Of a stretch of DNA of 64,000 bases, positions 4,821 through 54,380 are shown one piece after another. The DNA is taken from IMG/VR virus record IMGVR_UViG_3300009130_000013, positions 29,196 through 93,195 of that record; one strand, 5' to 3'. Positions within the stretch are counted from its first letter, which is position 1. Each line of letters starts with the position of its first letter. Made by a program: the position numbers and the translations under genes. This stretch comes from a virus. The notes below the pieces were generated by a model. The model was not told the DNA's origin. It was given only the letters and a program-made list of their open reading frames with translations, and made no database searches.

Positions 4821-5342
4821 ATGACAAATGATTTAAAATGGCACGAAAGATTAAGACTTAAAATAGTCCGAATATTACTGAGCATTATAGATCGTTTATT
4901 AAAAAGAAATCCAAACTCATTACAGAAATTTATTGAGCAGAAAAATGTTGCTATGGATTCAGCTTTAACAGAAGCTGTCAATAAAAAAATGGCAAGCGAT
5001 ATTGCCAAAGTATTAATACCACCAGTACCAGAACCTACTTTCGAAGAAACTAAACCTAATCTAGCTATTAGAGATATAGATTTTAATCTATCTAATGATG
5101 AAAAGGCTAGTGATGATTTAATAATGTTTTATGCTGAACTAGAAAATTTAATTGAAAAACATATGGTCGGTACTAGTGCTCTAGTTATCGCTGGACCTTT
5201 AATGGCCCATTCAATGAAAATATATCGTACTGTATTACCTCAAAATGAATACGATCAAATACTATATCATGTTTATAATACAAGAAACAAGATAGAACCA
5301 ATAATCCTACCAGATTCAAATTCTCCAAAAACAATACACTAA
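4821..5342 (+). CDS. hypothetical protein
   Basis: A 173-residue protein. The N-terminus is an amphipathic basic helix (residues 1-35) that could lie on a membrane. The middle is Pro/Glu-rich (PPVPEPTFEETKP, about 67-80) and the C-terminal half is helical. No catalytic signature is visible. It is the last gene of the transcript started at 4136; a late-type promoter box overlaps its stop. Confidence 0.7.
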   Translation: MTNDLKWHERLRLKIVRILLSIIDRLLKRNPNSLQKFIEQKNVAMDSALTEAVNKKMASDIAKVLIPPVPEPTFEETKPNLAIRDIDFNLSNDEKASDDLIMFYAELENLIEKHMVGTSALVIAGPLMAHSMKIYRTVLPQNEYDQILYHVYNTRNKIEPIILPDSNSPKTIH

Positions 5343-5348
5343 TAAGTA
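5341..5348 (+). promoter_or_regulatory. late-type promoter box AATAAGTA
   Basis: AATAAGTA fits the ATAAGTA variant of the T4 late -10 element seen elsewhere in this window. The ATG of the next gene begins 7 nt after the box and has no Shine-Dalgarno sequence, so the transcript would be leaderless or nearly so. Confidence 0.5.
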
Positions 5349-5355
5349 TTAGTAC

Positions 5356-6129
5356 ATGAACGAAAACCTAACAATTTACATTAGCCAACCTATGGAAAAT
5401 AATAGCCGAACAGATAGGTTATTTGAGCATACCAAAAATAATTGTTATGAAATGTACCCAAGTGCTACGATTAATAGTTTCCCTACAGAGGATTCTCGTC
5501 AAAAAGATATCTGGAATTCAATATATTTTAATAGAGATAGCCTAGGTATTGTTTGTGTAATTTCAGCAGGACATATATTTTTAGAGCCTAACAAAACATT
5601 TGAATTAGTATTAGAGCAAACCAAAGGTAAAACTTGGTGGGCTTTAGGCCATATGTTAGATCGTACAAACGAAGGAACATATCTGAGAATATTTAATAGT
5701 TGTTACTTTGTAAATGTACCAGAGATTCGTTCAATCTTAAGCAAAAGAGAAAAAGGAGTATTTCCAGGCTATCGTCCTACTGGTGGAATAAAAGAACCAT
5801 GGAAAAATTGGACAAGAAGTAAACAAAATCATCATGGAACCTATACTCCATTGTGGATTGAAAATGGAAAGGGTTATTACGAAGGACCCCCTTTAAAAGA
5901 ACATTGTGGATCTGTAATGATACACGAAGGAATTAAAAGAAACATCAGATTTGAAAGTTTTAACCAGAAAATTAGAGATAGTAAAGAATTTGCCTATATG
6001 AATTGGGATGATTTTGGTACTATTGATTGGGAGAATATGATTGGATATTTGGACTCAAAAGTCATTCCAAACGGTGAAAATGACGATAATTATTGGTGGT
6101 TTTACAGAGATTCCGAAATAAAATCATAA
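5356..6129 (+). CDS. hypothetical protein, late-type
   Basis: A 257-residue soluble protein rich in Trp, Tyr and Asn. There is no Shine-Dalgarno before the ATG but an AATAAGTA box lies immediately upstream. A segment TWWALGHMLDR (about residue 95) and the Trp/Gly-rich second half are distinctive but match no family I know. Possibly a virion or host-modification protein. Confidence 0.7.
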   Translation: MNENLTIYISQPMENNSRTDRLFEHTKNNCYEMYPSATINSFPTEDSRQKDIWNSIYFNRDSLGIVCVISAGHIFLEPNKTFELVLEQTKGKTWWALGHMLDRTNEGTYLRIFNSCYFVNVPEIRSILSKREKGVFPGYRPTGGIKEPWKNWTRSKQNHHGTYTPLWIENGKGYYEGPPLKEHCGSVMIHEGIKRNIRFESFNQKIRDSKEFAYMNWDDFGTIDWENMIGYLDSKVIPNGENDDNYWWFYRDSEIKS

Positions 6130-8475: not shown

Positions 8476-9115
8476 ATTTAAAAAATGGACATATATAATC
8501 TTAGGATTTATATTTGGATTAATATTAACATTTGTTGTAGGAACATTTTACCCTAACTTTTATGTTGTATCAAAATTACAACAACAATTTGATGATAAGA
8601 TTCAATCTGTTTGGGAAGACTTTGGTATAATAGAACCTGCTATAGAATATTCAAACAATAACGAATTTGTTTTATCTGTTAGTAAATGTATTCAATGGAT
8701 AAATTTAGGCGTTAAAACACACGAAAGAATAGATAGAGAAATTATCATAGCAATGGCTGTTCTTGAAACAGGATACGGAAAGAGTAGATTTGCTAACGAA
8801 GGTAATAACTTATTTGGTATTAGAACTTGGGATGATGAAATACCACAACTAAAACCATTAGGAAATCCTGACGTTGTTTGGGGTGTAAGAGTATACAAAA
8901 CCAAGTGCCAATCAGTTCAAGATATGATAAGTACTATTAACAGACATCCAGCCTATGAACTGTTTAGAATTGAAAGAGCAAAACAGTTAGAAACAAATTC
9001 TATTAACATTAATAAACAAATCGATCTTCTAAACAAATGGAGCACCAACCCTGACTACACAAAACTAATTAAGCAAAAGGTTATAAAGATTAAAAAAATA
9101 TTAGAGAATGGGTGA
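8447..9115 (+). CDS. membrane-anchored Bax/glucosaminidase-like muralytic enzyme
   Basis: A 222-residue protein with one N-terminal membrane helix (about 13-35) and a periplasmic domain. The core IAMAVLETGYGKSRFANEGN, then NNLFGIRTW, VRVYKTKCQSVQDMI and NRHPAYELFR is the endo-beta-N-acetylglucosaminidase / Bax fold. The catalytic Glu is expected in LETGYGKS, about residue 102. The enzyme would hydrolyse peptidoglycan glycan strands. There is no tail or holin context here, so it may serve envelope remodelling during infection rather than final lysis, which the GH19 endolysin at 34407 probably performs. Confidence 0.8.
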   Translation: MNMAGMMKRKFKKWTYIILGFIFGLILTFVVGTFYPNFYVVSKLQQQFDDKIQSVWEDFGIIEPAIEYSNNNEFVLSVSKCIQWINLGVKTHERIDREIIIAMAVLETGYGKSRFANEGNNLFGIRTWDDEIPQLKPLGNPDVVWGVRVYKTKCQSVQDMISTINRHPAYELFRIERAKQLETNSININKQIDLLNKWSTNPDYTKLIKQKVIKIKKILENG

Positions 9116-10358
9116 ACCGATTTATAGTTTAAAAAATCTCAACACAATCCAAGTAGAACTTACAGCCAATTGTAATGCTATGTGTCCTGCTTGTGACCGG
9201 TGGGTTAGAGATACCGATAATAAAGATAAAACACTAAAGGTTGGTGACTTAAACCCTACCATTAAACCTTACCAAGGTAGTAAAGGACATTTTACTTGGG
9301 AGGCTTGGCAAAATTTATTCAATAAAGAAACATTAGCAGACTTAAGAATGATCACCTATAATGGAACTTGGGGTGATGCTATTTTACATCCTGATATATT
9401 TTCGTATACACAACATATCATTGATACAATAAAAGAAACAGATAATAAATTTTGTGCTCTTGAAATTAGTACCAATGCTGGTTTACATTCTACAGATTGG
9501 TGGAGAGAATTAGCAAACTTAAACAAACAATTTTATCAGCCATGGAGTAAAGTTATATTTTGTATAGATGGACTTGATGATAAAACCCATCAACTATATC
9601 GTAGAGCAGTTAAGTGGGAAAAGGTTATGGAAAATGCCAAAGCATATATAGACGAAGGTGGTAGAGCTGTTTGGCAATGGTTACAATTTGATCACAATAA
9701 ACATCAAACAGAACAAGCAGAGGAATTAGCAAAAGAATTAGGGTTCGCTGAATTTTGGTTAAGAGGCAGTCGAGGTGAACGTTTAGCAGTACAAAAAACA
9801 ATAGCAAAATTAGGTGACGACGATACTGATATCGGAAATGTAGACGTAGCCTTGTATAATAGCAAAGCAGTAAACAGACGTGTTAAACATAATGAAGCGA
9901 AAGAGGGCTCTATATCGTATATTACAGATAAGGATAAAGTATCAGTTAATACAAAAGAAATAACATCTAAATATAAGAATTACGAAGATTATAGAGAGAA
10001 TACAACGATTTCTTGTTCCTGGGGGAACAAAGGAAAAATCAACGTGGAGTTCAACGGTTTAGTCCATCCATGTTGTTACGTTAACCACTATATGAATAAC
10101 TTCTGGAGTAAAGAACTAGATGGTCATTTAGAGGGTAGCGAATATGAGATTATGACAGATAGTTATGTTGGTCATTGGAATAATTTGAACCATAACAATC
10201 TACAGAACATATTATCTCATAACTTTTATATGAACGACCTGGAGCAATCTTGGAAAAATAAGACAGGTGATTTAGAACTTCCAAGACTAGGTGTTTGTGT
10301 AAGTCATTGTGGTGAAGGCCACGAAAACATCAGAAGTTATGATGTAAGCAAACTGTAA
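9108..10358 (+). CDS. radical SAM/SPASM protein, paralogue 1
   Basis: A 416-residue protein. The radical SAM signature CX3CX2C is present as CNAMCPAC (C22, C26, C29) in ELTANCNAMCPACDRW. The C-terminal SPASM-type region has further cysteines (ISCSWGNKGK, LVHPCCY, VCVSHCGEG) that would bind one or two auxiliary 4Fe-4S clusters. Enzymes of this class cleave S-adenosylmethionine to modify peptides, carbohydrates or cofactors. It is clearly paralogous to the gene at 22031 (shared DDKTHQLYRR and FDHNKHQ). A ferredoxin and an A-type Fe-S carrier follow and could supply electrons and clusters. The substrate is unknown. Confidence 0.9.
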   Translation: MGEPIYSLKNLNTIQVELTANCNAMCPACDRWVRDTDNKDKTLKVGDLNPTIKPYQGSKGHFTWEAWQNLFNKETLADLRMITYNGTWGDAILHPDIFSYTQHIIDTIKETDNKFCALEISTNAGLHSTDWWRELANLNKQFYQPWSKVIFCIDGLDDKTHQLYRRAVKWEKVMENAKAYIDEGGRAVWQWLQFDHNKHQTEQAEELAKELGFAEFWLRGSRGERLAVQKTIAKLGDDDTDIGNVDVALYNSKAVNRRVKHNEAKEGSISYITDKDKVSVNTKEITSKYKNYEDYRENTTISCSWGNKGKINVEFNGLVHPCCYVNHYMNNFWSKELDGHLEGSEYEIMTDSYVGHWNNLNHNNLQNILSHNFYMNDLEQSWKNKTGDLELPRLGVCVSHCGEGHENIRSYDVSKL

Positions 10359-10369
10359 AGGAGAATATT

Positions 10370-10528
10370 ATGGATTATGTTACAGATAGAATGAAAGAAA
10401 AAGCATCGCACGGTGGAGCAGGCTTAATCGCTATTGGAGTTTTAGTTTTAGTAGGCGGTAGTTTGGTACATTGGGCGGCCTGGGCCGCGATTGCCTATGG
10501 TGCTTATCAAGTATTAAGCAAAGGCTAA
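10370..10528 (+). CDS. 52-residue two-helix membrane protein
   Basis: A short ORF with a strong ribosome binding site (AAAGGAG). After MDYVTDRMKEKASHGGAG comes a helix (LIAIGVLVLVGGSLVHW) and a second Ala-rich hydrophobic stretch ending AYQVLSKG. It is probably an inner-membrane hairpin. Small hydrophobic proteins of this type are common in phages; a holin role is possible but there is no supporting context. Confidence 0.65.
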   Translation: MDYVTDRMKEKASHGGAGLIAIGVLVLVGGSLVHWAAWAAIAYGAYQVLSKG

Positions 10529-10536
10529 TTTTAACT

Positions 10537-10848
10537 ATGAGTACGTTCAAATGTATTACAAGATCGGGACGTGAATTTGATGTTGAGTACAATGAGAACG
10601 ATAACATCATGGTGGCACTATATGATCACTTCAAAGGCGAACCTTGGGGAGACTGTGGAGGGTGTTGTATATGTGCCACCTGTCATGTTGAAATTATAAA
10701 AGGGTATCCTAATATACCACACGAAGATGAAGAGGATACCTTAGAAGGGTCTTTTGAGAAGGTTGACAATAGCCGACTAGGTTGTCAATGTCCATTAAAA
10801 GGCATAAAAGATAAGTCACTAGTCGTGAAAGTTCATCATATAGACTAA
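10537..10848 (+). CDS. 2Fe-2S ferredoxin, adrenodoxin type
   Basis: A 103-residue protein (ATG at 10537; in-frame starts further upstream would overlap the membrane protein gene). The ligand pattern is C40-x5-C46-x2-C49 (GDCGGCCICATCHVE) with the fourth Cys in LGCQCPL (83 or 85), as in ISC-type/adrenodoxin ferredoxins. The residue context CxxCCxCATC is Cys-rich beyond the four ligands. Its function is electron transfer, plausibly to the adjacent radical SAM enzyme or to Fe-S assembly. It lies directly upstream of an A-type carrier gene with a GATAAGTA box between them. Confidence 0.92.
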   Translation: MSTFKCITRSGREFDVEYNENDNIMVALYDHFKGEPWGDCGGCCICATCHVEIIKGYPNIPHEDEEDTLEGSFEKVDNSRLGCQCPLKGIKDKSLVVKVHHID

Positions 10849-10852
10849 TAAC

Positions 10853-10860
10853 GATAAGTA
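10853..10860 (+). promoter_or_regulatory. late-type promoter box GATAAGTA
   Basis: GATAAGTA, identical to the box at 48926, lies 22 nt before the start of the A-type carrier gene. Confidence 0.45.
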
Positions 10861-10882
10861 TTATTAGTTAGGAATTATTAAA

Positions 10883-11215
10883 ATGATAGAAGTAACACAA
10901 AAAGCAAAAGACTATCTACTACAAGCTACAAACAGAAATGATCAACAATATGCTACTTTTTCTATAAAAGGTGGTGGTTGTAGTGGATTTACCTACGAAT
11001 GGGAATTTGCTAACGAAATAAAAGATCCTAAAGAATGGATTGAAGTACAATTAAGCGATAAATCAGATAAAAAATTAATGATAAATCGTCTCGCTGAAAT
11101 GTATGTTTTAGGTAGCACAATAGACTATGTAGAAGAATTAGGTGGTTCCTTCCTAGCAATTAAGAACCCACAAGCCAAATCAAGCTGTGGCTGTGGCGAT
11201 TCATTTGCTGTTTAA
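10883..11215 (+). CDS. A-type Fe-S cluster carrier (IscA/ErpA/HesB family)
   Basis: A 110-residue protein with the three conserved cysteines of the family: GGGCSGFTYEW (C33) and the C-terminal SSCGCGDSF (C102, C104). These proteins receive Fe-S clusters from the scaffold and deliver them to apo-enzymes. The length is normal. With two radical SAM enzymes and a ferredoxin encoded nearby, the likely role is maturation of phage Fe-S proteins or support of host Fe-S supply during infection. Confidence 0.93.
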   Translation: MIEVTQKAKDYLLQATNRNDQQYATFSIKGGGCSGFTYEWEFANEIKDPKEWIEVQLSDKSDKKLMINRLAEMYVLGSTIDYVEELGGSFLAIKNPQAKSSCGCGDSFAV

Positions 11216-11218
11216 GAA

Positions 11219-11226
11219 TATAAATA
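11219..11226 (+). promoter_or_regulatory. T4 late promoter (TATAAATA)
   Basis: An exact match to the T4 late -10 consensus TATAAATA, directly after the Fe-S carrier stop and 30 nt before the first tail fibre gene. In T4 this element is read by gp55 with the gp45 clamp; gp45 is encoded at 60455, gp55 is not in the window. Confidence 0.75.
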
Positions 11227-11255
11227 CAATATAACATAAAAATAGGAACACGGAA

Positions 11256-11921
11256 ATGGCAAAACAAACTGTAAATCTAGGTAGTTCAGCAAATGACGGA
11301 ACAGGTGATCCGTTAAGAACAGCCTTTGATAAAATTAATGATAATTTCGACGAACTATATAGTGCTGGAGCGGCCGGTACAAACTTAGACTTAACCGGAA
11401 ACAGTATAACAAGCATAGACACAAACGGCAATATTACACTTGATCCAAACGGAACAGGTAAAGTAGTAGTTAATACAGCCGCTAAACTAAACCTAGCTGA
11501 CCATAATGACCATTCCATCCTATTTACAAATACAGCAGGTGATGTTAGCAATAGCACAAAATTAACTTTTAATGCCGCAACTAGCACTTTCTCATTTGAA
11601 GATCTATCAGTAAATGCTAGTACTATTTCATCTAATAACTCAAATCAAGATATAACACTTGACCCAGCTGGTACTGGAAGAGTAGCTGTTAACAGTTCAC
11701 TAATTCCAGTTGATACAGCACAAGAAAGTTTAGGATTAGCAACTAAACAATGGTTAACTGTATTTGCTAGTACAGGTACATTTGGTACAACTAGTGCTAA
11801 TTCATCTTTACACAATCCAGGTTCGGCTCCAGGTTCACCAACAAATGGTATGATCTATTATGATAGTACAGCCCATAAATTCAAAGGCTATGCCAATGGT
11901 GCTTGGGTTGACTTACATTAA
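11256..11921 (+). CDS. tail fibre/adhesin-like structural protein
   Basis: A 221-residue protein. The N-terminus TVNLGSSANDGTGDPLRTAF is the hallmark of short T4-like marine phage fibre proteins (attachment module). Two copies of the strand motif ITLDPxGTGxVxV (about residues 63 and 129) suggest a repetitive beta-fibre. The C-terminus NGMIYYDSTAHKFKGYANGA is a terminal beta module found in many fibre proteins. Probably a virion surface protein contacting the host. It is transcribed from the TATAAATA late promoter. Confidence 0.85.
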   Translation: MAKQTVNLGSSANDGTGDPLRTAFDKINDNFDELYSAGAAGTNLDLTGNSITSIDTNGNITLDPNGTGKVVVNTAAKLNLADHNDHSILFTNTAGDVSNSTKLTFNAATSTFSFEDLSVNASTISSNNSNQDITLDPAGTGRVAVNSSLIPVDTAQESLGLATKQWLTVFASTGTFGTTSANSSLHNPGSAPGSPTNGMIYYDSTAHKFKGYANGAWVDLH

Positions 11922-13372: not shown

Positions 13373-13380
13373 GATAAATA
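13373..13380 (+). promoter_or_regulatory. late promoter box GATAAATA next to the start codon
   Basis: GATAAATA ends 5 nt before the ATG at 13386 and no Shine-Dalgarno sequence is present, so initiation from this box would give a leaderless mRNA. Confidence 0.6.
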
Positions 13381-13385
13381 CTTGT

Positions 13386-15707
13386 ATGAGTAAACCCATA
13401 TGGACAACGCCAGCGGGTAGTCTAGGAACTATCCAAGAGAACGAATATTATAGCCTTCCAATAGAATGTGATTACGGTGAAAGGCATGATATTGTTTATA
13501 CCCTACAGGCTGGCAAATTACCACAAGGATTATTAATTAGACGAGACGGTATCTTAGAAGGACAACCTACTTGTAAGGTTGATGTTGCTGGTATTCCAGT
13601 GGAAGTAGGGCAAGATGTCAAAAGCACATTTGCCATAAGGGCTTCAGCAGATGGGTTTGTAACAGATAGAACATTTGAATTAACAGTAACAGGACAAGAT
13701 GCTCCTATGTTTACTACATCAGCAGGTGTTATTGGAACATTTGTAGATGGTCAAGAAGTTAATTTACAACTAACAGCACACGATCCAGACCCAGACGACA
13801 CATATACATTTTTAAAAACATCAGGTGAATTACCACCAGGTGTTACAATGGATTCAAGTGGTAAAATTACAGGGTTTATTACACCTTCTAAAATACCTGG
13901 ATCACCTGATCCTGGTTTAGATAAAACATACTTTGACCTGTATAGTTTTGACTTCACAAACAACTATATTAGTAAAGCATATGAATGGACAGTAGCAGTA
14001 ACTGATAGTAAAGATACAGCAATAAGAACATTTGCTATTGATGTTAAAGCATCTTCTACATTAAGAGCCTCAACTGATGCCATAAAAGCCAGTAACACAA
14101 TAATGACAGCTGATTCTAGTGTTTTTCATCCACCACAAATAACAAATAAAAGTTATGTGTTTGATAATATCTTACATAGTAACAAATGGTACTTACAAGT
14201 ACTTGGTTACGACTATGACGAAACACCTATAACATATAGTATTAGTTCTGGAGCACTACCATCTGGGCTATCAATTAATTCAACATCAGGTTGGATAACA
14301 GGAAACTTACCATCTATTACTGACATCAAAAAACAATACAAGTTTACAGTAAGGGTTACAAAATCAGACAATCCAAATTACTATAGCGAAAAAGAATTTA
14401 CACTTAACCTTGTAATAGATAGTGCTGTTACTCCTACATGGAAAACTCCTGCTATATTAGGAACAGTTATTAGTGGAGAACCTAGTAGACTTTATGTTGA
14501 AGCTACAAGTACAATGTCAGAAAGTTTTTCTTACAGAATTAAATCAGGAACTAAAAGTGGATTGCCACAAGGACTACAACTAGAAACAGATGGAACAATA
14601 TCTGGTGTACCTAGCTTTGGTAGTTTCTCAAATGATAATAATACTACAACATATGATAACAAGTTATTAACATTTGACAAATCATTTAAGGTTACAATCC
14701 AAGCCGTTAATGCCAACGGAAGTGTAAGGGCTGAAAGAGAATTTACAATATTAATTAAGAACGAAAACTTTAAGCCTTATGAAAATGTTTATGTTGTTAA
14801 TCAATCAACTGATGTTAATAGAACAGCTTGGTTTAATATGGTTAACAATCATGATAACATACCAAACGAATTTATATATAGACCAAACGATCCATTTTAT
14901 GGTGTTGAACGAAGTCCTAAAATATTATTAGCACATGGATTATATCCTAAATTAAGTTCTGAATACATGACAGTTTTACAGAAAAACTTTTATAAAATAG
15001 ACTTAAACTATGGAGAAATAAAAACAGCTCAAGCAGTTGATCCTGATACTGATAAAGTAGTATATGAAGTTGTATATGCTGAAATAGTAGATCGACACAC
15101 CGAAAAGAACACAGATGGAAAACTAATCCCAGGCAATGTAAAAATTGTAGCCAATTCGGCAACTACAATTACCAGTTATAGTTCTCCTTTAACAGTTGAT
15201 GAGATAACTAAAGGTAACACTAATTTAATTACTGGTGATGTTAAAAACAAAACAATACTTTATCCAAGTGGACTTGAAATTATGCGACAAGCTATTATTT
15301 CAAGTATTGGACATTTAGATAGTAGAGTTTTACCATTATGGATGAGAAGTGCTCAAGCAGATGGCAAGATTTTAGGTTACATACCAGCAGTTATCTTATG
15401 TTATGCTAAACCAGGCAAAGCGGCACAGATCAAGTATTATTTAGATAAAGATAAAACAATAGACTTAAAGAAACAAATATTTACTGTAGATAGATTCCTT
15501 TGGGATAACAGTCGAAGTAAAAACTTTAATAAAACTACTCAAAAGTGGAGTACAACAACTGAAACAACATATGATGGTGATACAACTACTTTTGAGGGCT
15601 CTTATACCAGCTTTTTTGGTAATGTTGATAAAAGAGAACAAAATTGGAACACAGGCGATCAATATTTGAAGTTCCCGAGAGAACATATAATGGATACGCC
15701 GAACTAA
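13386..15707 (+). CDS. large virion protein with repeated Ig-like (He_PIG/cadherin-type) domains
   Basis: A 773-residue protein. At least four repeats carry the LPxGL/V....G.I.G motif (GKLPQGLLIRRDGILEGQP, GELPPGVTMDSSGKITG, GALPSGLSINSTSGWITG, GLPQGLQLETDGTISG) across residues about 45-430, the signature of putative Ig (He_PIG) domains. Residues 450-773 are a separate region with no repeat. Such architecture is found in large baseplate- or fibre-associated proteins of marine myoviruses. There is no signal peptide, consistent with a virion part. The start codon lies 5 nt from a late promoter box. Confidence 0.8.
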   Translation: MSKPIWTTPAGSLGTIQENEYYSLPIECDYGERHDIVYTLQAGKLPQGLLIRRDGILEGQPTCKVDVAGIPVEVGQDVKSTFAIRASADGFVTDRTFELTVTGQDAPMFTTSAGVIGTFVDGQEVNLQLTAHDPDPDDTYTFLKTSGELPPGVTMDSSGKITGFITPSKIPGSPDPGLDKTYFDLYSFDFTNNYISKAYEWTVAVTDSKDTAIRTFAIDVKASSTLRASTDAIKASNTIMTADSSVFHPPQITNKSYVFDNILHSNKWYLQVLGYDYDETPITYSISSGALPSGLSINSTSGWITGNLPSITDIKKQYKFTVRVTKSDNPNYYSEKEFTLNLVIDSAVTPTWKTPAILGTVISGEPSRLYVEATSTMSESFSYRIKSGTKSGLPQGLQLETDGTISGVPSFGSFSNDNNTTTYDNKLLTFDKSFKVTIQAVNANGSVRAEREFTILIKNENFKPYENVYVVNQSTDVNRTAWFNMVNNHDNIPNEFIYRPNDPFYGVERSPKILLAHGLYPKLSSEYMTVLQKNFYKIDLNYGEIKTAQAVDPDTDKVVYEVVYAEIVDRHTEKNTDGKLIPGNVKIVANSATTITSYSSPLTVDEITKGNTNLITGDVKNKTILYPSGLEIMRQAIISSIGHLDSRVLPLWMRSAQADGKILGYIPAVILCYAKPGKAAQIKYYLDKDKTIDLKKQIFTVDRFLWDNSRSKNFNKTTQKWSTTTETTYDGDTTTFEGSYTSFFGNVDKREQNWNTGDQYLKFPREHIMDTPN

Positions 15708-15710
15708 ATA
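15703..15710 (+). promoter_or_regulatory. late promoter box ACTAAATA
   Basis: ACTAAATA overlaps the stop of the preceding gene and lies 20 nt before the ATG at 15731, which here does have a GGAGAA ribosome binding site. The same octamer precedes the gene at 43621. Confidence 0.6.
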
Positions 15711-15730
15711 CAGTATACGGAGAATAGAAA

Positions 15731-16501
15731 ATGGCAAGTAGTATTACACCGACTAACATAAGCGTAACTTTCCCAATAGCTGGGCAAGATAACGACTCGC
15801 AAGGGTTTAGAGATAACTTTAATAACATTAAAACTAACCTAACTTATGCTAAAACAGAATTAGAAGATATACAAGCAAAAGGTATATTTAAAAGTGCTTT
15901 AACAGGTACAACACTATCTAATGATGGTGCTGGTGCTGTTCTTGAAGACTTTGAACTTAAAGACATTTCCGAAACTAAAATTGACAAAGGTACAAACTCA
16001 GGTACTGTAGCAATTGATTTCTCCGCAGGTCATTTCCAAACAATTCAAACAAGTGGTGATGTTACTTTAGACTTTACTAATTTTCCAGCAAGTGGTAAAA
16101 TTGGTTCTGTAACAGTTGAAGTTAACGTTACTACAGCACACAAATTAGGATTACCTGCTACAGTAACTATTGGCGTTGCTGACTTGGCAGACTATAATTC
16201 AACAGCTAGAAAAATTGGGTTTGCGGCAGATGGAAAATATAGATTTAAATTTACATCATACGATGGCGGAACTTCTGTAGCAATAGAAGATCTTAATAGA
16301 GCACCAAATAGAGTACATGGTAACACATTACAACTTGTTCCAGTTCCTGGAAGTGATGTTGCTAACTTTAAAACTGTTGGTGTTGCTGGTAATAAAGCCG
16401 GAATGATAGCCATTGATGCTGATGCTATCTATATTTGTACAGCAGATTACGATGGCTCTGCCAATATTTGGAAAAAAGCTACATTAGTAGCAAGTTCATA
16501 A
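15731..16501 (+). CDS. tail fibre-like structural protein
   Basis: A 256-residue protein. The N-terminus (SITPTNISVTFPIAGQDNDS, then GFRDNFNNIK) is an attachment module seen in marine phage fibre/baseplate proteins. The centre is predicted all-beta, and the C-terminus DADAIYICTADYDGSANIWK is shared with the C-terminus of the protein at 11935. It is the last gene of the late fibre block. Confidence 0.8.
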   Translation: MASSITPTNISVTFPIAGQDNDSQGFRDNFNNIKTNLTYAKTELEDIQAKGIFKSALTGTTLSNDGAGAVLEDFELKDISETKIDKGTNSGTVAIDFSAGHFQTIQTSGDVTLDFTNFPASGKIGSVTVEVNVTTAHKLGLPATVTIGVADLADYNSTARKIGFAADGKYRFKFTSYDGGTSVAIEDLNRAPNRVHGNTLQLVPVPGSDVANFKTVGVAGNKAGMIAIDADAIYICTADYDGSANIWKKATLVASS

Positions 16502-16511
16502 TAAAAAATAC

Positions 16512-16541
16512 TTGACTTTGTAACCTCTTTGATGCTATAAT
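16512..16541 (+). promoter_or_regulatory. sigma70-type promoter
   Basis: TTGACT (16512-16517), an 18-nt spacer and TATAAT (16536-16541), with GGAGG at 16552-16556 before the MazG start. Confidence 0.85.
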
Positions 16542-16562
16542 AGTATTTTATGGAGGCTATAG

Positions 16563-16970
16563 ATGACAACCATCTTAAACAACTATTCAAAATTTGTTGA
16601 AACTGTCACAAGCGAAGAAGCAAATGACACAAATACCCTTATAGATAAACTTAAAGAGATAGAAGCATCTTCGGGAGTAAACTTGGCTTTACTTATGAAT
16701 GGTGCGATTGGTATCTCATCAGAAGGAGGAGAATTCAGTGAAATTGTTAAAAAATGTGTGTTCCAAGGTAAGCCACTTAACGATGAAACTATATTTCATT
16801 GTAAACGAGAACTTGGTGATATTATTTGGTATTGGAGTAATTGCTGTAGGGCTCTTGGCTTGGACCCAAATAAAGTCATAGAAGAAAATATAAACAAACT
16901 ATCAAGTCGTTACCCAGGCGGTTCATTTGATGTATATCATTCTGAAAATAGAAAAGAGGGAGACCTATAA
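16563..16970 (+). CDS. MazG-like nucleotide pyrophosphohydrolase
   Basis: A 135-residue all-alpha protein with the MazG-type metal-binding pattern: GISSEGGEFSEIVKK (EGGE...E) and KRELGDIIWYW (E..D), then RYPGGSFD. Such phage enzymes hydrolyse (d)NTPs to monophosphates plus pyrophosphate. Marine phage versions prefer dGTP/dCTP, which fits recycling of GC-rich host nucleotides, or they may alter (p)ppGpp signalling. It is the first gene behind a strong promoter, so expressed early. Confidence 0.9.
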   Translation: MTTILNNYSKFVETVTSEEANDTNTLIDKLKEIEASSGVNLALLMNGAIGISSEGGEFSEIVKKCVFQGKPLNDETIFHCKRELGDIIWYWSNCCRALGLDPNKVIEENINKLSSRYPGGSFDVYHSENRKEGDL

Positions 16971-17248
16971 TGTTTAATCCACTCGCTCCTAATCTAGATG
17001 ATTACAGCATAGATGATTTAACTAAAAGATTATCCCAACTAAATGCTAGACTATCTGGTGCTATTAAAAGTGGTAACCCTACTGTAGCACAACAGGTAAG
17101 AGTATTAATAATGGAAGCTTCTGAAGAACTTGCTAAACGTAACAGAGATTTAATGAAAAAAACACAAGAAGAAATGAATAAGGGTAAAGAACCTGTAAGA
17201 AAAGATCTTGACCCTGAAAACACAGACCCAATGGATATAGGCGAATGA
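16970..17248 (+). CDS. small helical hypothetical protein
   Basis: A 92-residue protein, mostly charged helices (DLTKRLSQLNARLSG, then LMKKTQEEMNKGKE) with coiled-coil potential. It is coupled to the MazG gene by TAATG overlap. The function is unknown. Confidence 0.7.
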   Translation: MFNPLAPNLDDYSIDDLTKRLSQLNARLSGAIKSGNPTVAQQVRVLIMEASEELAKRNRDLMKKTQEEMNKGKEPVRKDLDPENTDPMDIGE

Positions 17249-17487
17249 AAGGAATCAGAGCACACAAACGGAAACCAAAAGAAAAAGATTTCTTAGAAGA
17301 AGCCGAAAAGGAGAAAAGAGAATTGAACGAATCTTATCAAGAGTCAAAACGACAAACTAAAGAAAGAAAATATCAAAACCTAGCTGACTGTATTAGATCC
17401 GATCAGTTATCAGCAAGACAAGTAGTACAAGAAATGGAAGCTGATCCTGAGTTTAAAGAATGGTACAAAAAAAGGTACTTAAAATGA
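17245..17487 (+). CDS. small charged hypothetical protein
   Basis: An 80-residue helical, Lys/Glu-rich protein. It begins in the ATGA junction with the previous gene and ends in another ATGA junction. No motif is recognised. Confidence 0.65.
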   Translation: MKGIRAHKRKPKEKDFLEEAEKEKRELNESYQESKRQTKERKYQNLADCIRSDQLSARQVVQEMEADPEFKEWYKKRYLK

Positions 17488-17681
17488 CAACAAAGCCATT
17501 TAAAAAAATGTGGCAATTAAGAATTCCATTTCCTGATATGCCAGAGTTATGGCAAGATTGGAATTGGGAATACAATAAAGAAGAAGCAAAAGCAAACATT
17601 GAGAAAAAAATGAAAGCATGGCGTGAAAGCGAAGGCGGTAAAAAGTTTTTTAAACATTTTGGTAACAGATATGATCGATAA
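17484..17681 (+). CDS. small Trp-rich hypothetical protein
   Basis: A 65-residue protein read from the ATG at 17484 (ATGA overlap). WQLRIPFPDMPELWQDWNWE gives four Trp in 20 residues. Two in-frame upstream ATGs (17460) would give an overlap inside the previous gene and are less likely. It overlaps the next gene by 11 nt. The function is unknown. Confidence 0.65.
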   Translation: MTTKPFKKMWQLRIPFPDMPELWQDWNWEYNKEEAKANIEKKMKAWRESEGGKKFFKHFGNRYDR

Positions 17682-18180
17682 GTACGGGCAAGTATACTTT
17701 AATGAAAACGAAGCTATAAATTTAGTTTATGCTAACCCTAAAATAGACTTGAGTAATATTAAAATTGAAGACCCAAGTAAATTTAATAAAGCAGTAGAAG
17801 AATTATACAGTGACGTACCAAAGTTAAAACAATATGTACCTTTGGATATAAGTATCGAAGAATTCGATAGAAACAATCAAAATAATTGGTTTATGCCTAA
17901 AGAATATATCGAGTTTGATATAGCAAAATGGGTATTAGAACAATGTGATGGTGATGCTGAATTACAACGGGCTGGAGAAGAATTAATGTCTTTTCAAGAA
18001 CGTAATTTATTACCATTATTAAATTTTATGTATTATCTAGTTAACATCATGAGAGAAAATAACATAGTCTGGGGTGTAGGTAGAGGATCTAGTGTATCTA
18101 GTTTTGTATTATACAAAATTGGAATTAATAGAATAAACCCGATATATTACAGTTTAGACTTCTCTGAGTTTCTAAGATAA
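17671..18180 (+). CDS. DnaE (Pol III alpha)-like fragment protein
   Basis: A 169-residue protein (ATG at 17671; a start at 17623 would overlap the preceding gene). The C-terminal half includes VWGVGRGSSVSSFVLYKIG, then INPIYYSLDFSEFLR, closely following the C-family polymerase palm segment G-GRGSSAGSLVAYLLGI...DP..Y.LLFERFL that contacts the incoming nucleotide triphosphate. The protein stops just there, before the region where DnaE carries its catalytic aspartates, so it cannot be a polymerase. Possibly a dominant-negative mimic of host DnaE or a repurposed fold. It has its own stop and a well-spaced downstream gene, so it is not obviously decayed. Confidence 0.7.
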   Translation: MIDKYGQVYFNENEAINLVYANPKIDLSNIKIEDPSKFNKAVEELYSDVPKLKQYVPLDISIEEFDRNNQNNWFMPKEYIEFDIAKWVLEQCDGDAELQRAGEELMSFQERNLLPLLNFMYYLVNIMRENNIVWGVGRGSSVSSFVLYKIGINRINPIYYSLDFSEFLR

Positions 18181-18206
18181 TATATACATATACAGGAGAA
18201 TAACTT

Positions 18207-18821
18207 ATGGCAAAAAGAGAATATAAGACAGCAAGTGGTAAAAGAGTAGACTTTGATACTTTAATGATCAAAGGCGAAGAAACTATTGCTGTTGGAAATA
18301 TGGGTGTTAATGCCAGGGGTGATAAACTAGGTGAAGGTGGAGCAGTAGTTCAAAAACGTGAAGAGGTAATAGCTGATTATTACAGAATTCACAATGGCAC
18401 TATTCCACAAGACCGTCCAATTCCAGATGGTTCACCAGAGCCTGATCAAGTTGATTTACAACAAACAACAGGCCCAGAAGTAACAAACATTAACCCTAGC
18501 AAAGATCCTATTTTAGCAGAGCTAGAGACTGAAAGTCCTAGTGAACGTGATATTGTTACCAGTGATGAACTTGCTTCAGCATTGGCTTCAACAGCAGAAG
18601 TAGTAGTCCCAGCTACAGATCACGCTGAACAAAAGACTTATGAAAATGAAGTTGATAAAAGTTCAGAAACTGAAACAGTAGTAGAAGAACCCGTTGTAGA
18701 AGAAAAACCTCGTGGAGGATTGGCTTCAGCAGTAGCAAAAGTAAAATCTACAAAGCCTGTTGTTAAAGAAAAAACAGCAGATGAAACGACAAAGGCAAAG
18801 CCAGGAGTAAAACGAGTTTAG
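18207..18821 (+). CDS. conserved marine myovirus protein, probably structural
   Basis: A 204-residue protein. The N-terminal 60 residues (YKTASGKRVDFDTLMIKGE, then TIAVGNMGVNARGDKLG) are a conserved module I associate with T4-like marine phages. The rest is low-complexity, acidic and Pro/Val/Glu-rich with a basic tail (VKEKTADETTKAKPGVKRV). Such disordered acid/basic tails fit virion-packaged or assembly proteins. A good ribosome binding site (CAGGAGA) is present. Confidence 0.75.
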   Translation: MAKREYKTASGKRVDFDTLMIKGEETIAVGNMGVNARGDKLGEGGAVVQKREEVIADYYRIHNGTIPQDRPIPDGSPEPDQVDLQQTTGPEVTNINPSKDPILAELETESPSERDIVTSDELASALASTAEVVVPATDHAEQKTYENEVDKSSETETVVEEPVVEEKPRGGLASAVAKVKSTKPVVKEKTADETTKAKPGVKRV

Positions 18822-18822
18822 T

Positions 18823-20019
18823 ATGAAAATACTTTGTATTTTATATGACGACCCTACAAAGGGTATGCCTACAAACTATCCAGTAAAAGATTTACCCAAG
18901 CTGGACAAATATCCTGATGGGATGACATTACCAACACCTAAAGGTAGAGATTATACTCCAGGTGAATTACTAGGTTGTGTCTCAGGAGAATTGGGTTTAA
19001 GAAAGTTCTTGGAAGACCAAGGACATACATTAGTTGTTACGTCTGATAAAGATGGTGAAGGTTGTACAGCTGATAAAGAGTTAGTTGATTCTGACATTGT
19101 TATATCACAACCATTTTGGCCTTACTACTTAACAAGGGAAAAAATGGAATCAGCACCAAACTTAAAGATGGCAATTACGGCAGGCATAGGATCTGATCAC
19201 GTAGACTTACAAGCGGCAATGGATAATAAAGTTGACGTAGTTGAAGTAACTTATTGTAATTCAAGATCAGTAGCAGAACATATTGTTATGATGATACTAG
19301 CATTAGTTAGAGATTATCATAATCAACACGCTATCGTAAAAGCAGGCGGCTGGCATATTGCTGACGCTGTTCAAAGAAGTTATGATGTTGAAGGTATGAA
19401 CGTAGGTACTATTGCGGCAGGACGTATTGGTATTGATATGTTAAGAAAAATGAAACCATTTGATGTACATTTACATTACATGGATAGACATAGATTACCT
19501 GAAGCTGTGGAGCAAGAGTTAAATCTTACTTTCCACGAAACAGTAGAATCTTTAGTAGCAGTTTGTGACGTTATTAACATTAGTTGTCCACTACACCCTG
19601 AAACAGAACATTTGTTTAATGACGAAATGATTAGTAAGTGTAAGCCTGGTGCTTATATTATTAATACAGCACGTGGTAAGATTTGTGATAAAGATGCTAT
19701 TGCTAGAGGACTTGAGTCAGGTCAGTTAAGTGGTTATGCAGGAGATGTTTGGTTTCCACAACCAGCACCTAACGATCATGTGTGGAGAAGTATGCCACAT
19801 CATGGAATGACACCACATACATCAGGAACAAGTTTATCAGCACAGACAAGATATGCTGATGGCGTTAGAGAAATACTAGAATGTTTCTTTGACGGTACAC
19901 CAATTAGAGATCCATACTTAATTGTACAAAATGGAGAACTAGCAGGTATGGGAGCTCACTCTTATAGTAAGGGTACAGCTACTGGTGGCTCTGAAGAAGC
20001 CGCAGAATATAAAAAGTAA
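18823..20019 (+). CDS. fdh: NAD-dependent formate dehydrogenase
   Basis: A 398-residue D-2-hydroxyacid-dehydrogenase-fold enzyme, full length for the class. Residues fall in the same positions as in the well-studied Pseudomonas sp. 101 enzyme: N146 in VTYCNS (formate binding), AAGRIG (198-203, NAD loop), D221 in YMDRHR (NAD over NADP), R284 in NTARGK, Q313 in FPQPAP and H332 in MTPHTSG. The tail GAHSYSKGTATGGSEEAAEYK is FDH-specific. The reaction is formate + NAD+ to CO2 + NADH in the cytosol, so infection could gain NADH from C1 metabolism. The start lies 1 nt past the previous stop; base use resembles its neighbours. A GroES-like gene follows. Confidence 0.95.
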   Translation: MKILCILYDDPTKGMPTNYPVKDLPKLDKYPDGMTLPTPKGRDYTPGELLGCVSGELGLRKFLEDQGHTLVVTSDKDGEGCTADKELVDSDIVISQPFWPYYLTREKMESAPNLKMAITAGIGSDHVDLQAAMDNKVDVVEVTYCNSRSVAEHIVMMILALVRDYHNQHAIVKAGGWHIADAVQRSYDVEGMNVGTIAAGRIGIDMLRKMKPFDVHLHYMDRHRLPEAVEQELNLTFHETVESLVAVCDVINISCPLHPETEHLFNDEMISKCKPGAYIINTARGKICDKDAIARGLESGQLSGYAGDVWFPQPAPNDHVWRSMPHHGMTPHTSGTSLSAQTRYADGVREILECFFDGTPIRDPYLIVQNGELAGMGAHSYSKGTATGGSEEAAEYKK

Positions 20020-20037
20020 GGCAGAGAGTTTAAGACT

Positions 20038-20403: not shown

Positions 20404-20406
20404 TAT

Positions 20407-21038: not shown

Positions 21039-21040
21039 AC

Positions 21041-21069
21041 TTGACTTTTATCATAAATTGTTATATAAT
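21041..21069 (+). promoter_or_regulatory. sigma70-type promoter for gp44
   Basis: TTGACT (21041-21046), a 17-nt spacer and TATAAT (21064-21069), 26 nt before the clamp loader ATG. Confidence 0.88.
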
Positions 21070-21095
21070 ACTTGTTATATGAAAAGGTATAGCAA

Positions 21096-22016: not shown

Positions 22017-22017
22017 G

Positions 22018-22025
22018 GTTAAATA
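22018..22025 (+). promoter_or_regulatory. late promoter box GTTAAATA next to the start codon
   Basis: GTTAAATA followed by TTTGT and ATG, the same geometry as GATAAATA-CTTGT-ATG at 13373. It implies a leaderless transcript for the second radical SAM gene. Read-through from gp44 is also possible, with AAGG at 22015-22018 as a distant ribosome binding site. Confidence 0.5.
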
Positions 22026-22030
22026 TTTGT

Positions 22031-23329
22031 ATGTTTTTAGACCCAACGAAACTCAGAAGAATCACGATAGAAATTACAGCAAACTGTAATAGTTTCTGCC
22101 CTCAATGTTTGAGAAGAGTATCAGGTGATATTCCACATTTAAATTTAAAAGAAGGTGATGTTAATCCAGCAATTAAAGTAGGTAGTTCTGGTAATATGCC
22201 TATGTCTACTATTAAGAATATCTTTACTCCTACAGTAATGGGTGGACTTAAAACATTAGACTTAAATGGTTCGTTTGGTGACGCTATTAATCACCCAGAC
22301 ATGATAGAGATACTTCATTATATTGCTGATGTAAGTGATAGTGTAAAGTCACAGAGATTAAAGAATGATCGTAACACTAGAACAGACCTATGGGTTAGTA
22401 CTAACGGTGCTATGAGAAACAAAGAGTTTTGGACTGACCTTGGGCATTTAGCAAGTCAACGATACAATCCTAACAACTCAGAATTAATATTTGCTTTAGA
22501 TGGAACAGATGATAAAACACATCAACTATATCGTAGAGGTTGTTCATACGAAAAAGTTTTAGAGAATGCTCGTTACTTTATGGAGGCTGGCGGCAAAGCT
22601 ATATGGCAAATTATTGAGTTTGACCACAACAAACATCAAATAGAAGAAGCAAAAGAACTAGCAAAGAAATTAGGATTTGTTAGAATTGATGTAAGACGTA
22701 GTAGATGGGCTGAAAGAATTAGTAATCAATTAAGAGAAAAAGCAATTAAAACAGGTGTTGTAAGTGTAAAAGAAAAAGAAACAGACTTCGACCATAAAGG
22801 ATTTGGTAACGTTAAGAAAAAGAAGTTTGAAAACAAATCACATAAGCCACCTACAGATCATTACAAGTCAATGGAAGAAAAAGCTAAGAAAATTGTTGTA
22901 GAAAAGTTTGACAATAGTATGGATGACTATGCCAACAACTGTAACATTTGGTGCTCATGGGGTAATGAAGGAAAGTTACAAATTGAATGGGATGGTCGTG
23001 TACACGTTTGTTGTCACTTTACAGCCTATTTTGCTCGTTCATGGCGTAAAGATATGGCTAACCCTGATGGTAGCCCTAATAATACATACCATAACAAGTA
23101 TGTGTCGAACTATGATGAGAAATGGAATTATACCAGCCATCATACATTAGAAGATGTGTTAGGACATAAGTTCTTTCAAACGGATTTACAGGATAGTTGG
23201 AAAAACCGTACTGACGATCCAATTAAACCTAGAATGGAGATCTGTGTAGATAACTGTGGTAGTATCGTACAAGAGCTCAGAGATAAAAAAGAAGATAGAA
23301 TATCTTTAGACGGAGGTAAAACAACATGA
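22031..23329 (+). CDS. radical SAM/SPASM protein, paralogue 2
   Basis: A 432-residue protein, paralogous to 9108. CX3CX2C is CNSFCPQC (C19, C23, C26). Shared blocks include FALDGTDDKTHQLYRR and EFDHNKHQIEEAKELAKKLG. C-terminal auxiliary-cluster cysteines: NIWCSWGNEGK, HVCCHF, ICVDNCGS. A Lys-rich insertion near residues 250-290 distinguishes it from paralogue 1. The two enzymes may act on related or consecutive substrates, or form a heterodimer. The substrate is unknown. Its stop overlaps the next start by 4 nt. Confidence 0.9.
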   Translation: MFLDPTKLRRITIEITANCNSFCPQCLRRVSGDIPHLNLKEGDVNPAIKVGSSGNMPMSTIKNIFTPTVMGGLKTLDLNGSFGDAINHPDMIEILHYIADVSDSVKSQRLKNDRNTRTDLWVSTNGAMRNKEFWTDLGHLASQRYNPNNSELIFALDGTDDKTHQLYRRGCSYEKVLENARYFMEAGGKAIWQIIEFDHNKHQIEEAKELAKKLGFVRIDVRRSRWAERISNQLREKAIKTGVVSVKEKETDFDHKGFGNVKKKKFENKSHKPPTDHYKSMEEKAKKIVVEKFDNSMDDYANNCNIWCSWGNEGKLQIEWDGRVHVCCHFTAYFARSWRKDMANPDGSPNNTYHNKYVSNYDEKWNYTSHHTLEDVLGHKFFQTDLQDSWKNRTDDPIKPRMEICVDNCGSIVQELRDKKEDRISLDGGKTT

Positions 23330-24609: not shown

Positions 24610-24637
24610 AGTATAGTTAATAAGGAATAGTTGAAAA

Positions 24638-36254: not shown

Positions 36255-36262
36255 AATAAATA
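36255..36262 (+). promoter_or_regulatory. late promoter box AATAAATA
   Basis: AATAAATA followed by ACATAATAAAGGAGC and the start at 36286. Confidence 0.55.
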
Positions 36263-42629: not shown

Positions 42630-42880
42630 TGGTAAACTGGATTAAATTAAAATTAGGACATACACCTACAGTACAAGAACAACGTGTCTTTGCTGGTGCT
42701 ATTGCTATGGTGTTAGGTAAAAACTTAACTGAAAGTAAAGACGACTGGTATATAGACGTATTAGATGATCATGCTTTAGGTTGTAAATTTAAAACAGCAT
42801 TTACAGAAGATGAAGCTAATAGATTAGCTCACGTATTATCGAGAACTATCCCCGATCACGAATTAGAAATATCAGTTTAA
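42629..42880 (+). CDS. small hypothetical protein
   Basis: An 83-residue soluble protein (FAGAIAMVLGKNLTESKDD), coupled to the preceding structural gene (TAATG). Its stop region includes TTTAAATA, a late box for the following gene. No motif is recognised. Confidence 0.7.
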   Translation: MVNWIKLKLGHTPTVQEQRVFAGAIAMVLGKNLTESKDDWYIDVLDDHALGCKFKTAFTEDEANRLAHVLSRTIPDHELEISV

Positions 42881-42883
42881 ATA
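42876..42883 (+). promoter_or_regulatory. late promoter box TTTAAATA close to the start
   Basis: TTTAAATA ends 8 nt before the ATG at 42892. AGG within the box-to-ATG gap is the only possible ribosome binding site. Confidence 0.45.
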
Positions 42884-42891
42884 GGTAATCA

Positions 42892-43590
42892 ATGTTCACT
42901 GACGAACAATCAAAAAGAATACAAAACAGTTTCTTAGCAATATGTACTCCTTGTTACGGAGGACAACTCACAGAAAAACATTATGTAAGTATGGTTTCAT
43001 ACGTTATTGCTTGTATGAAAAATAATATGATGTTTAGTTTAGAAACTATGGCTAACGAAAGCCTTGTTACTAGAGCTAGGAATAATCTAGTAGCAAAAAT
43101 GATGATGAATCCTAAAACTACCCACCTAATGTTTATAGATGCTGATGTTGGTTTCCCAACTGACGCTATGTATAAACTTATAGCACACGATAAAGATGTT
43201 GTTGGTGGTATATATCCTAAAAAAACATTTGAACCTGACTATGTTTTTAATCCTTTACCTGATGCTAAAAGAGAAGGTGATGTAATAGAAGTTGATGATA
43301 TAGGTACAGGCTTTTTACTAATCAAACGTGAAGTTATTCAAAAGATGTTTGACAGTTTTCCTAACTTAAAATACAAAAATAATATCAATATTGGCAATGA
43401 CGCTGAGCCGTTCATGTATGCCTTATTTGATACTCACCTCGACGAAAAAGGCAATTACCTAAGCGAAGATTACACTTTTTGCGAACGATGGCGTAGTTTA
43501 GGTGGCAAAATATATGCTGATACTAGCATAGAATTAACACATACTGGCTATTATCCATTTACAGGCGACGTCACGTTGCTTCAAAAATAA
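42892..43590 (+). CDS. GT-A-type glycosyltransferase
   Basis: A 232-residue protein. SFLAICTPCYGGQLTEKHY begins the nucleotide-binding half, and LMFIDADVGFP (about 80-90) carries the DxD metal-binding motif. DIGTGFLLIKREVIQKMF and SEDYTFCERWRSLGGKIYAD match the acceptor-side ED motif of family-2-like glycosyltransferases. It transfers a sugar from an NDP-sugar; phage targets include virion proteins, modified DNA or host glycans. The epimerase and UDP-sugar dehydrogenase genes near 59 kb could supply substrates. Confidence 0.85.
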   Translation: MFTDEQSKRIQNSFLAICTPCYGGQLTEKHYVSMVSYVIACMKNNMMFSLETMANESLVTRARNNLVAKMMMNPKTTHLMFIDADVGFPTDAMYKLIAHDKDVVGGIYPKKTFEPDYVFNPLPDAKREGDVIEVDDIGTGFLLIKREVIQKMFDSFPNLKYKNNINIGNDAEPFMYALFDTHLDEKGNYLSEDYTFCERWRSLGGKIYADTSIELTHTGYYPFTGDVTLLQK

Positions 43591-43597
43591 CTAAATA
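43590..43597 (+). promoter_or_regulatory. late promoter box ACTAAATA
   Basis: ACTAAATA overlaps the glycosyltransferase stop and lies 23 nt before the next ATG, which is preceded by TGGAG. Confidence 0.6.
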
Positions 43598-48925: not shown

Positions 48926-48933
48926 GATAAGTA
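48926..48933 (+). promoter_or_regulatory. late-type promoter box GATAAGTA next to the start codon
   Basis: GATAAGTA then CTAAT then ATG: the same 5-nt spacing as at 13373 and 22018, without a Shine-Dalgarno sequence. Confidence 0.55.
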
Positions 48934-48938
48934 CTAAT

Positions 48939-49181
48939 ATGAAGATAAAAGATATTATTGAAACCGCAACAGCAGGTGCTACAGCAAGTGGTAACATCGC
49001 CACCGTTGTAAATCCTCATATTGCTATAGGAAGTAAAGCACAACAGAAAAGTTATGCTGGATCGCCAGGTAAAATGGGTAAAACACCTAAACATCCTAAA
49101 CCCAAAAAACAAAAACCTACTGATAATGCTTTAAATATGAAAGATACAAGTATATTTGGTGGGCCAATGCTAAAGCGATAA
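48939..49181 (+). CDS. small basic late protein
   Basis: An 80-residue protein. MKIKDIIETATAGATASGN leads, with IIE fitting the (I/L)xE prohead-protease consensus, then a Pro/Lys-rich low-complexity part (KTPKHPKPKKQKPTDN). A likely small virion or core protein. It has a late-type box and no Shine-Dalgarno. Confidence 0.65.
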   Translation: MKIKDIIETATAGATASGNIATVVNPHIAIGSKAQQKSYAGSPGKMGKTPKHPKPKKQKPTDNALNMKDTSIFGGPMLKR

Positions 49182-53637: not shown

Positions 53638-53645
53638 TCTAAATA
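53638..53645 (+). promoter_or_regulatory. late promoter box TCTAAATA next to the start codon
   Basis: TCTAAATA ends 9 nt before the ATG at 53655; there is no Shine-Dalgarno sequence between (ATTACTAGT). Confidence 0.5.
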
Positions 53646-53654
53646 ATTACTAGT

Positions 53655-54380
53655 ATGTTAAACAACGATTTAAATATTCGTAAAAAAACTTCCTATAAAT
53701 CTATTGGCCCTACTGGTATACCAGAAGGCTTTATACTAGATAGTCCATCTAAAAGTGAACTAGGTGCTGAAGGTTGGAAAAATCATATGTGGCAAAACTT
53801 TAGCTACACATACAATGAAGATGGCTTTAGAACAACATTTCCTTATACAAACTCAGGAATAATTGCTATAGGTGATAGTTTTACAGAACATCACGGAGGC
53901 CCTGAAGAAGAACAATGGACACAACATATACATGGCCCAGGCACTAAAACGCCAATGGATGCTATAGTTATGGTTCCTAAGATTGATGTTATTAACTTAG
54001 GTATGGATGGGGCTGGTAATGATACTATTGCTGATATTGTAGAATGGGGAGTAAACAAATTTAAACCTCATACAGTATTAATAATGTTTAGCTTTTTACA
54101 TAGATGGAATGATAACGGCGAATTAAAAGCAGATGATACTAATGATGAAAGATGCCGAGAACGTATGTTGTTTAACTTTAATAGAATAGTAGAATATACT
54201 AAAGGATTAAAACTAATATACAGCTTCATACCAGATAGATTAGTTAGCAACAATGAATGGATAAACGAACATTTTCCTGATAGAATAAAGTATAGGCAAA
54301 CTGATTATGCTCGTGATGGAGTACATTTTGGTTATGATACTGTAAGATCAATTGGCGACTTGTTTAGTCGGGCTCTTTAA
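53655..54380 (+). CDS. SGNH/GDSL-family hydrolase
   Basis: A 241-residue protein. Block I IIAIGDSFTEHH (S75), a Gly/Asn block INLGMDGAGNDT, FSFLHRWND, and block V DGVHFGYDT with the Asp and His of the DxxH pair (about 222-225). The catalytic triad is complete. Such enzymes are esterases or acetyl-hydrolases acting on glycans or lipids. Its gene converges with the minus-strand gene at 54364 and overlaps it by 17 nt. Confidence 0.85.
   Translation: MLNNDLNIRKKTSYKSIGPTGIPEGFILDSPSKSELGAEGWKNHMWQNFSYTYNEDGFRTTFPYTNSGIIAIGDSFTEHHGGPEEEQWTQHIHGPGTKTPMDAIVMVPKIDVINLGMDGAGNDTIADIVEWGVNKFKPHTVLIMFSFLHRWNDNGELKADDTNDERCRERMLFNFNRIVEYTKGLKLIYSFIPDRLVSNNEWINEHFPDRIKYRQTDYARDGVHFGYDTVRSIGDLFSRAL

Follow-up and report, generated by a model that had tools for sequence, protein, structure and literature searches.

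Late promoter boxes of the T4 type occupy two preferred distances from start codons in the virus studied here: 5–9 nt upstream, without a Shine-Dalgarno (SD) sequence, and 18–34 nt upstream, with one. T4-like late transcription is a textbook system in which the late box leaves a leader usually bearing a ribosome-binding site, and the fused, near-ATG layout is a new variant of this promoter type. Judged from sequence, the near boxes are probably late promoters that depend on gp55 and adjoin the start codon directly, which would give leaderless mRNAs for a subset of late genes. The leaderless reading is well supported for a class of late genes whose best cases are those starting at 13386 and 48939 and the baseplate wedge gene 25.

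The virus and its late sigma factor

The window, a stretch of 64,000 nt, is included in a 93 kb source record (G000) that encodes T4-type replication and baseplate genes. A second contig (G011) overlaps this record over 11.2 kb at 99.9% identity and thus represents the same virus species; the two together amount to ~177 kb, and the GC content of the genome is 34%. Comparison with known phages at the DNA level gave no match for the window virus. A late sigma gene of the gp55 family is carried by G011 (phrog_234, E=8e-25, the family being identified via T4 gp55). No match by sequence to the gp45 sliding clamp family (phrog_223) was obtained in 14 records, which may be fragments.

The DNA polymerase (window 55963-58620) is jumbo-phage-like, its nearest isolates being jumbo phages of Sinorhizobium (48%) and Agrobacterium/Vibrio (~44%), despite a genome of only ~177 kb. 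Radical-SAM-like genes are unusually numerous for one phage species and several are clustered. In the 479-aa protein encoded at window 50403-51842, a 45-residue stretch is 73–91% identical to otherwise dissimilar phage proteins (L033-L041), as if it were an exchanged domain. Finally, TAGTATAGTTAATA occurs in four exact copies, all on the + strand and directly 5′ of an SD and ATG, with TTGG ~20–25 nt before; these repeats look like a separate promoter class, possibly early.

Window 9108-10358 and 22031-23329, G000 14865-24284, G011 ~13-26 kb: radical-SAM-like genes
L003 6774-7220 (contig part left of the window): cluster of five tRNAs (Arg, Cys, Glu, Phe, Ser)
Window 137-150 and 24609-24622, G000 1019 and 26379, + strand: copies of TAGTATAGTTAATA

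Late boxes lie at two distances from start codons

Genes of both contigs (215 genes) were called by one simple method that rewards SD sequences and is hence biased against leaderless starts. We scored the patterns NATAARTA and NHTAARTA, with d the distance from the end of the late box to the start codon. NATAARTA was found at d=5–9 before 9 genes of the two contigs where chance predicts 1.5 (P=2e-5); at d=5 exactly the count is 5 and the expectation 0.3. Some near boxes include the TAA stop of the upstream gene, and in a stop-corrected count all boxes with TAARTA overlapping any upstream CDS were omitted. Wholly intergenic boxes then occupied 13 of 437 positions at d=5–9 in this virus, a 6.9-fold enrichment over chance (P=9e-8), while d=10–17 was at background and a second peak of 2.6 times appeared at d=18–34. 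Permitting overlap with stop codons had inflated the count, especially for the related contig G010, but the enrichment held after correction.

Part of these matches could be fortuitous: for a short A/T-rich motif in a genome of 34% GC, ~1.5 to 3 random matches are expected at 5–9 nt over the two contigs, and this applies to the boxes at 5341, 22018 and 53638. For the box class as a whole, chance is refuted by the genome-wide enrichment together with the conservation described below, and it is a very improbable explanation.

The two classes differed in their SD content, an SD being present in 3 of the 14 near-box genes of this virus and in 15 of the 16 genes with a box at 18–34 nt (Fisher P=9e-5). 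ATG is the start codon of every one of the 14 near-box genes. The base immediately 5′ of TAARTA was preferentially A in near and far boxes alike. The leadered boxes of the window, which form the contrast class, are as follows.

11219..11226, + strand: ordinary leadered box TATAAATA, 29 nt before ATG 11256, SD present; baseplate connector-like gene
15703..15710, + strand: leadered box ACTAAATA, 20 nt before ATG 15731, GGAG; spacing and GGAG kept in relatives
36255..36262, + strand: leadered box AATAAATA, 23 nt before ATG 36286, AAGGAG
43590..43597, + strand: leadered box ACTAAATA, 23 nt before ATG 43621, GGAG

Genes of the 11256 type also have their box 24–29 nt upstream in relatives, mostly with an SD-like AGGA or GGGA.

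Near-ATG boxes in the window

The earlier note had listed five box/ATG pairs in the window. All five are present, with spacers of 7, 5, 5, 5 and 9 nt, and the pattern of box, 5 nt and ATG that it claimed for three sites is seen at 13373, 22018 and 48926. It had also described all five as devoid of SD; four indeed lack an SD of any class, but 22031 has AAGG at −16 to −13, too distant upstream for a good SD. The string used in that search does not match the box at 53638 (TCTAAATA) unless C is allowed at position 2.

5341..5358, + strand: box AATAAGTA, 7-nt spacer TTAGTAC, ATG 5356; 257-aa gene with no assigned function; individually weak
13373..13388, + strand: late box GATAAATA (13373-13380), 5-nt spacer CTTGT, ATG 13386; best-supported window site
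22018..22033, + strand: box GTTAAATA, 5-nt spacer TTTGT, ATG 22031; radical-SAM-like gene; individually weak
48926..48941, + strand: late box GATAAGTA, 5-nt spacer CTAAT, ATG 48939; 80-aa gene; conserved near box
53638..53657, + strand: weak box TCTAAATA, 9-nt spacer, ATG 53655; 241-aa gene with no assigned function; individually weak
42876..42883, + strand: TTTAAATA, 8 nt ahead of ATG 42892; TAA shared with the stop of the upstream gene, AGG between box and ATG

The last of these is probably a chance match, since its TAA doubles as the upstream stop and an AGG intervenes; it was excluded from the stop-corrected count. The 13386 gene encodes 773 aa with putative Ig domains and lies immediately 3′ of baseplate/tail-fibre connector genes. 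The 22031 gene starts 14 nt past the end of gp44 (clamp loader) and could be transcribed from upstream of this junction.

Conservation of the near boxes

A scan of the spacing in relatives, proposed in the earlier note, divided the five sites: the boxes at 13373 and 48926 are conserved, whereas those at 5341, 22018 and 53638 are not. All nine relatives of the 13386 gene (68–75% aa identity) show GATAAATA, 5 nt and ATG, and in none of the nine was an SD present upstream of the start. The octamer is invariant in 9 of 9, against 39–57% identity in stretches further upstream. Eight of these relatives have an in-frame stop (TAG) 15 nt ahead of the ATG, which excludes an earlier start; in the window the nearest in-frame stop is 27 nt away on the upstream side, and no ATG, GTG or TTG intervenes. 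In the distant G010 orthologue (29% identical) an SD is present and the box lies 21 nt upstream, and thus the layout can switch. Longer leaders with ribosome-binding sites in relatives had been named in the earlier note as a result that would speak against leaderless starts: the near relatives of 13386 always keep the leaderless geometry, and the distant G010 does have such a leader.

The 48939 homologues keep the box with some variation of the gap to ATG (8 nt in G003/G004, 6 nt in L034-L036, 9 nt in G010), and none of those compared has an SD before the start. At the remaining sites, 22031 relatives have a box 17–18 nt upstream or no box, no near box was found in 5356 orthologues, and the sole orthologue found for 53655 (G004) has no box. 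A search of viral contigs for homologues of the 5356 gene and of the gene at G000 10273-11493 returned nothing or the same virus only. The near boxes of 22031, 5356 and 53655 may therefore be recent or due to chance.

Gene 25 carries the near box across its clade

Gene 25 seems to us the strongest case for the leaderless layout. Its near box stands 5 nt from the ATG in this virus (G011:65533-65934) and in G006, 6 nt in G010, 5 nt in HTVC008M and 8 nt in Mosig; no near box was present at gene 25 of T4, Syn9, Vibrio 2.275.O, Serratia BF, phiM12, Cr30 or Melnitz. We then drew two gene 25 panels from IMG/VR, with 68 distinct contigs of the window type and 62 of the pelagiphage type. In the window clade, TAARTA lies 4–9 nt before the ATG in 59 of 68 contigs, at exactly 5 nt in 40; the other 9 have no box within 40 nt and several have an SD instead. 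Among pelagiphage-type copies an SD was found in 0 of 18 with a near box vs 35 of 44 with a far box (P=2.5e-9). The gene 25 proteins that keep this register are only ~41–65% identical.

The stop codons near many of these boxes could point to another origin, namely translational coupling, in which a stop within ~15 nt allows SD-less reinitiation and the box is a by-product of the TAA stop and A/T-rich sequence. Many near-box genes do begin 8–14 nt past a stop, and sometimes the TAA of the box is that stop. At gene 25 the upstream stop overlaps the box in 27 of the 59 contigs, and since the box TAA is there the stop of the upstream ORF, read-through and reinitiation are possible at those copies. 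The 32 other boxes are stop-free, however, and gene 25 of this virus stands head-to-head with its neighbour, so that no upstream gene is available for coupling. The genome-wide enrichment also survives removal of all boxes overlapping an upstream CDS, and the 13386 box is kept while its flanks diverge. Coupling is thus quite an improbable explanation for the near boxes, which we continue to read as promoters.

The extent of the layout was judged from the neighbours of gene 25 throughout the wider clade, which gave 78 boxes at 15–24 nt vs 4 at 5–9 nt. On these counts the fused layout belongs to gene 25 in that clade, while further genes have it in this virus, G010 and HTVC008M. A leaderless expression of the whole late programme was ruled out, most other boxed genes beside gene 25 in the wider clade being leadered.

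The fused layout in other phages

The fused layout is more widespread than the earlier note supposed, and is also found in the pelagiphages HTVC008M and Mosig, which infect SAR11, an abundant marine bacterium. Stop-corrected enrichment at d=5–9 was 10.3 times in G010 (P=2e-12), 7.2 times in HTVC008M (P=6e-7; 24 times at d=5 exactly) and 4.9 times in Mosig (P=2e-3; 20 times at d=5 exactly), with d=10–17 at background in all three as in our virus. By contrast, intergenic boxes at d=5–9 occupied 0 of 5,377 positions in six reference phages (T4, Syn9, the jumbo phages Vibrio 2.275.O and Serratia BF, Cr30 and phiM12) vs 47 of 1,553 in our virus, G010, HTVC008M and Mosig pooled (P=2e-31), the grouping of genomes for this test having been chosen after the first results were seen. 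Box rates at d=18–34 were equal in the two groups (0.87% in the references and 0.97% in the others). The gene 25 panels and the phages Mosig, Melnitz, Cr30 and phiM12 served as checks brought in at a later stage. P-SSM2 has 3 boxes at d=5–9, near chance.

An SD was found in 4 of 28 near-box vs 12 of 13 far-box genes in G010, and in 2 of 12 vs 9 of 9 in HTVC008M; 27 of 28 and 12 of 12 near-box genes, respectively, start with ATG. The start codons of the HTVC008M near-box genes are identical in the depositors' annotation. Genes with a box at exactly 5 nt include in HTVC008M those for the tape measure, the gp2 DNA end protector, the tail-tube-associated baseplate protein, gp25 and the gp3 tail completion protein, and in Mosig those for gp2 and gp3. 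In HTVC008M, Mosig and Melnitz alike, gene 2 lacks an SD and follows its box after a spacer of exactly 5 nt. Melnitz, which infects a Methylophilales bacterium, has three boxes at this spacing, a weak signal. Late (virion) genes thus lie downstream of near boxes in several phages: gene 25 in our virus, G006 and G010, and several genes in HTVC008M. The host class (alphaproteobacteria) was considered as the cause of this geometry and found no support, as Cr30 (Caulobacter) and phiM12 (Sinorhizobium) have no such boxes and Melnitz has three.

The near TAAATA might instead be an A/U-rich translation-initiation element of a longer mRNA, serving SD-less ribosome binding and involving no promoter. 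Such a role would fit a box that keeps a fixed distance to the ATG and takes the place of the SD. The identical box with the same preference for a preceding A, however, stands 18–34 nt before genes with an SD, here and in T4, where this upstream box is the late promoter. Moreover, the near-ATG box is missing from other T4-like phages, of which several are likewise A/T-rich, and short head-to-head gaps (32–56 nt; 4883 in our virus, 59714 in HTVC008M, 60990 in Mosig) have a near-ATG box at hand and offer the gene no other late box. We consider a purely translational element improbable and retain the promoter reading.

A model for two registers of one late promoter

In this promoter reading, RNA polymerase with the phage gp55-like sigma would recognise the box as its −10 element, and transcription would start ~6 nt past it. 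A 5-nt spacer would then make the A of the AUG the +1 base, and spacers of 6–9 nt would put the start up to 4 nt earlier. T4 late promoters are numbered from −13 at the first base of the octamer to −6 at its last (PMC2988020), from which 5–9-nt spacers predict leaders of 0–4 nt; for spacers of 7–9 nt the predicted leaders are 2–4 nt, strictly speaking not leaderless. An mRNA without room for an SD would be translated in the leaderless, 70S-type manner from its 5′-terminal AUG. We infer the activity of the box as a promoter, the exact start base and the 70S-type translation.

Leaderless expression would be limited to a subset of late genes, gene 25 above all, with the other boxed late genes keeping 18–34 nt and an SD. 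For this subset, the proposal that transcripts begin on or next to the AUG is well supported by conserved spacing, SD exclusion, the two preferred distances, the gp55 gene and the virion genes downstream; it is less secure for the three sites that are unconserved. We also find it reasonably likely that a large group of uncultured T4-like phages, together with SAR11 phages from another T4-like lineage, use one late promoter in two registers, whose position alone decides the mode of translation. That gene 25 keeps its register across such divergent proteins hints at a function, for instance control over how much of a baseplate part is made or when, or escape from a late translational shut-off.

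Relation to known systems and significance

With the T4 late promoter (TATAAATA, gp55/gp33/gp45) the near boxes share the same −10-like octamer or a near variant, a gp55-family sigma and virion genes downstream. They differ in position: the T4 box is mostly 15–34 nt upstream with a leader that usually has an SD, and the NATAARTA count gives T4 no box at 5–9 nt, whereas a subset here is at 5–9 nt with no SD. HTVC008M and Mosig EXVC030M likewise have a box 5 nt before the ATG at late virion genes, but represent a separate T4-like lineage, to which their records give the label Kyanoviridae. In the literature, a search for late promoters in pelagimyophages was unsuccessful (PMC7029224). Our literature search, outside which most subscription journals lie, found no description of leaderless T4-type late genes, which is weak evidence of absence.

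T4 gene 25 also has a non-standard translation start: its ribosome-binding site is split, and a hairpin brings a distant SD close (Nivinskas and Malys, cited in PMC3014915). In the window clade, a box stands beside the ATG of this gene with no SD.

Among cellular systems, a −10 element adjoining the ORF is an established route to leaderless mRNA in Deinococcus (PMC12340547). There too, the promoter is a −10 element that precedes the start codon by a few bp, the mRNA is leaderless and there is a spacing requirement, but the genes are cellular, the sigma is RpoD and the motif TANNNT, as opposed to the late sigma of a phage and the T4 late box. In Lactococcus cremoris, leaders are either <5 nt or ~40 nt long, and lengths of 4 to 14 nt do not occur (PMC10986495). 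The two box distances found here predict the same gap in leader length, which matches the unenriched zone; those leaders were measured on bacterial host genes, whereas the phage leaders are deduced from sequence.

If the model is true, searches for late promoters that expect a leader may miss some late genes, as in the failed attempt in pelagimyophages, and such starts may be misplaced by gene-finding programs that favour an SD. Gene 25 would, moreover, switch between leadered and leaderless forms among phages, a natural experiment for testing directly why leaderless expression is used.
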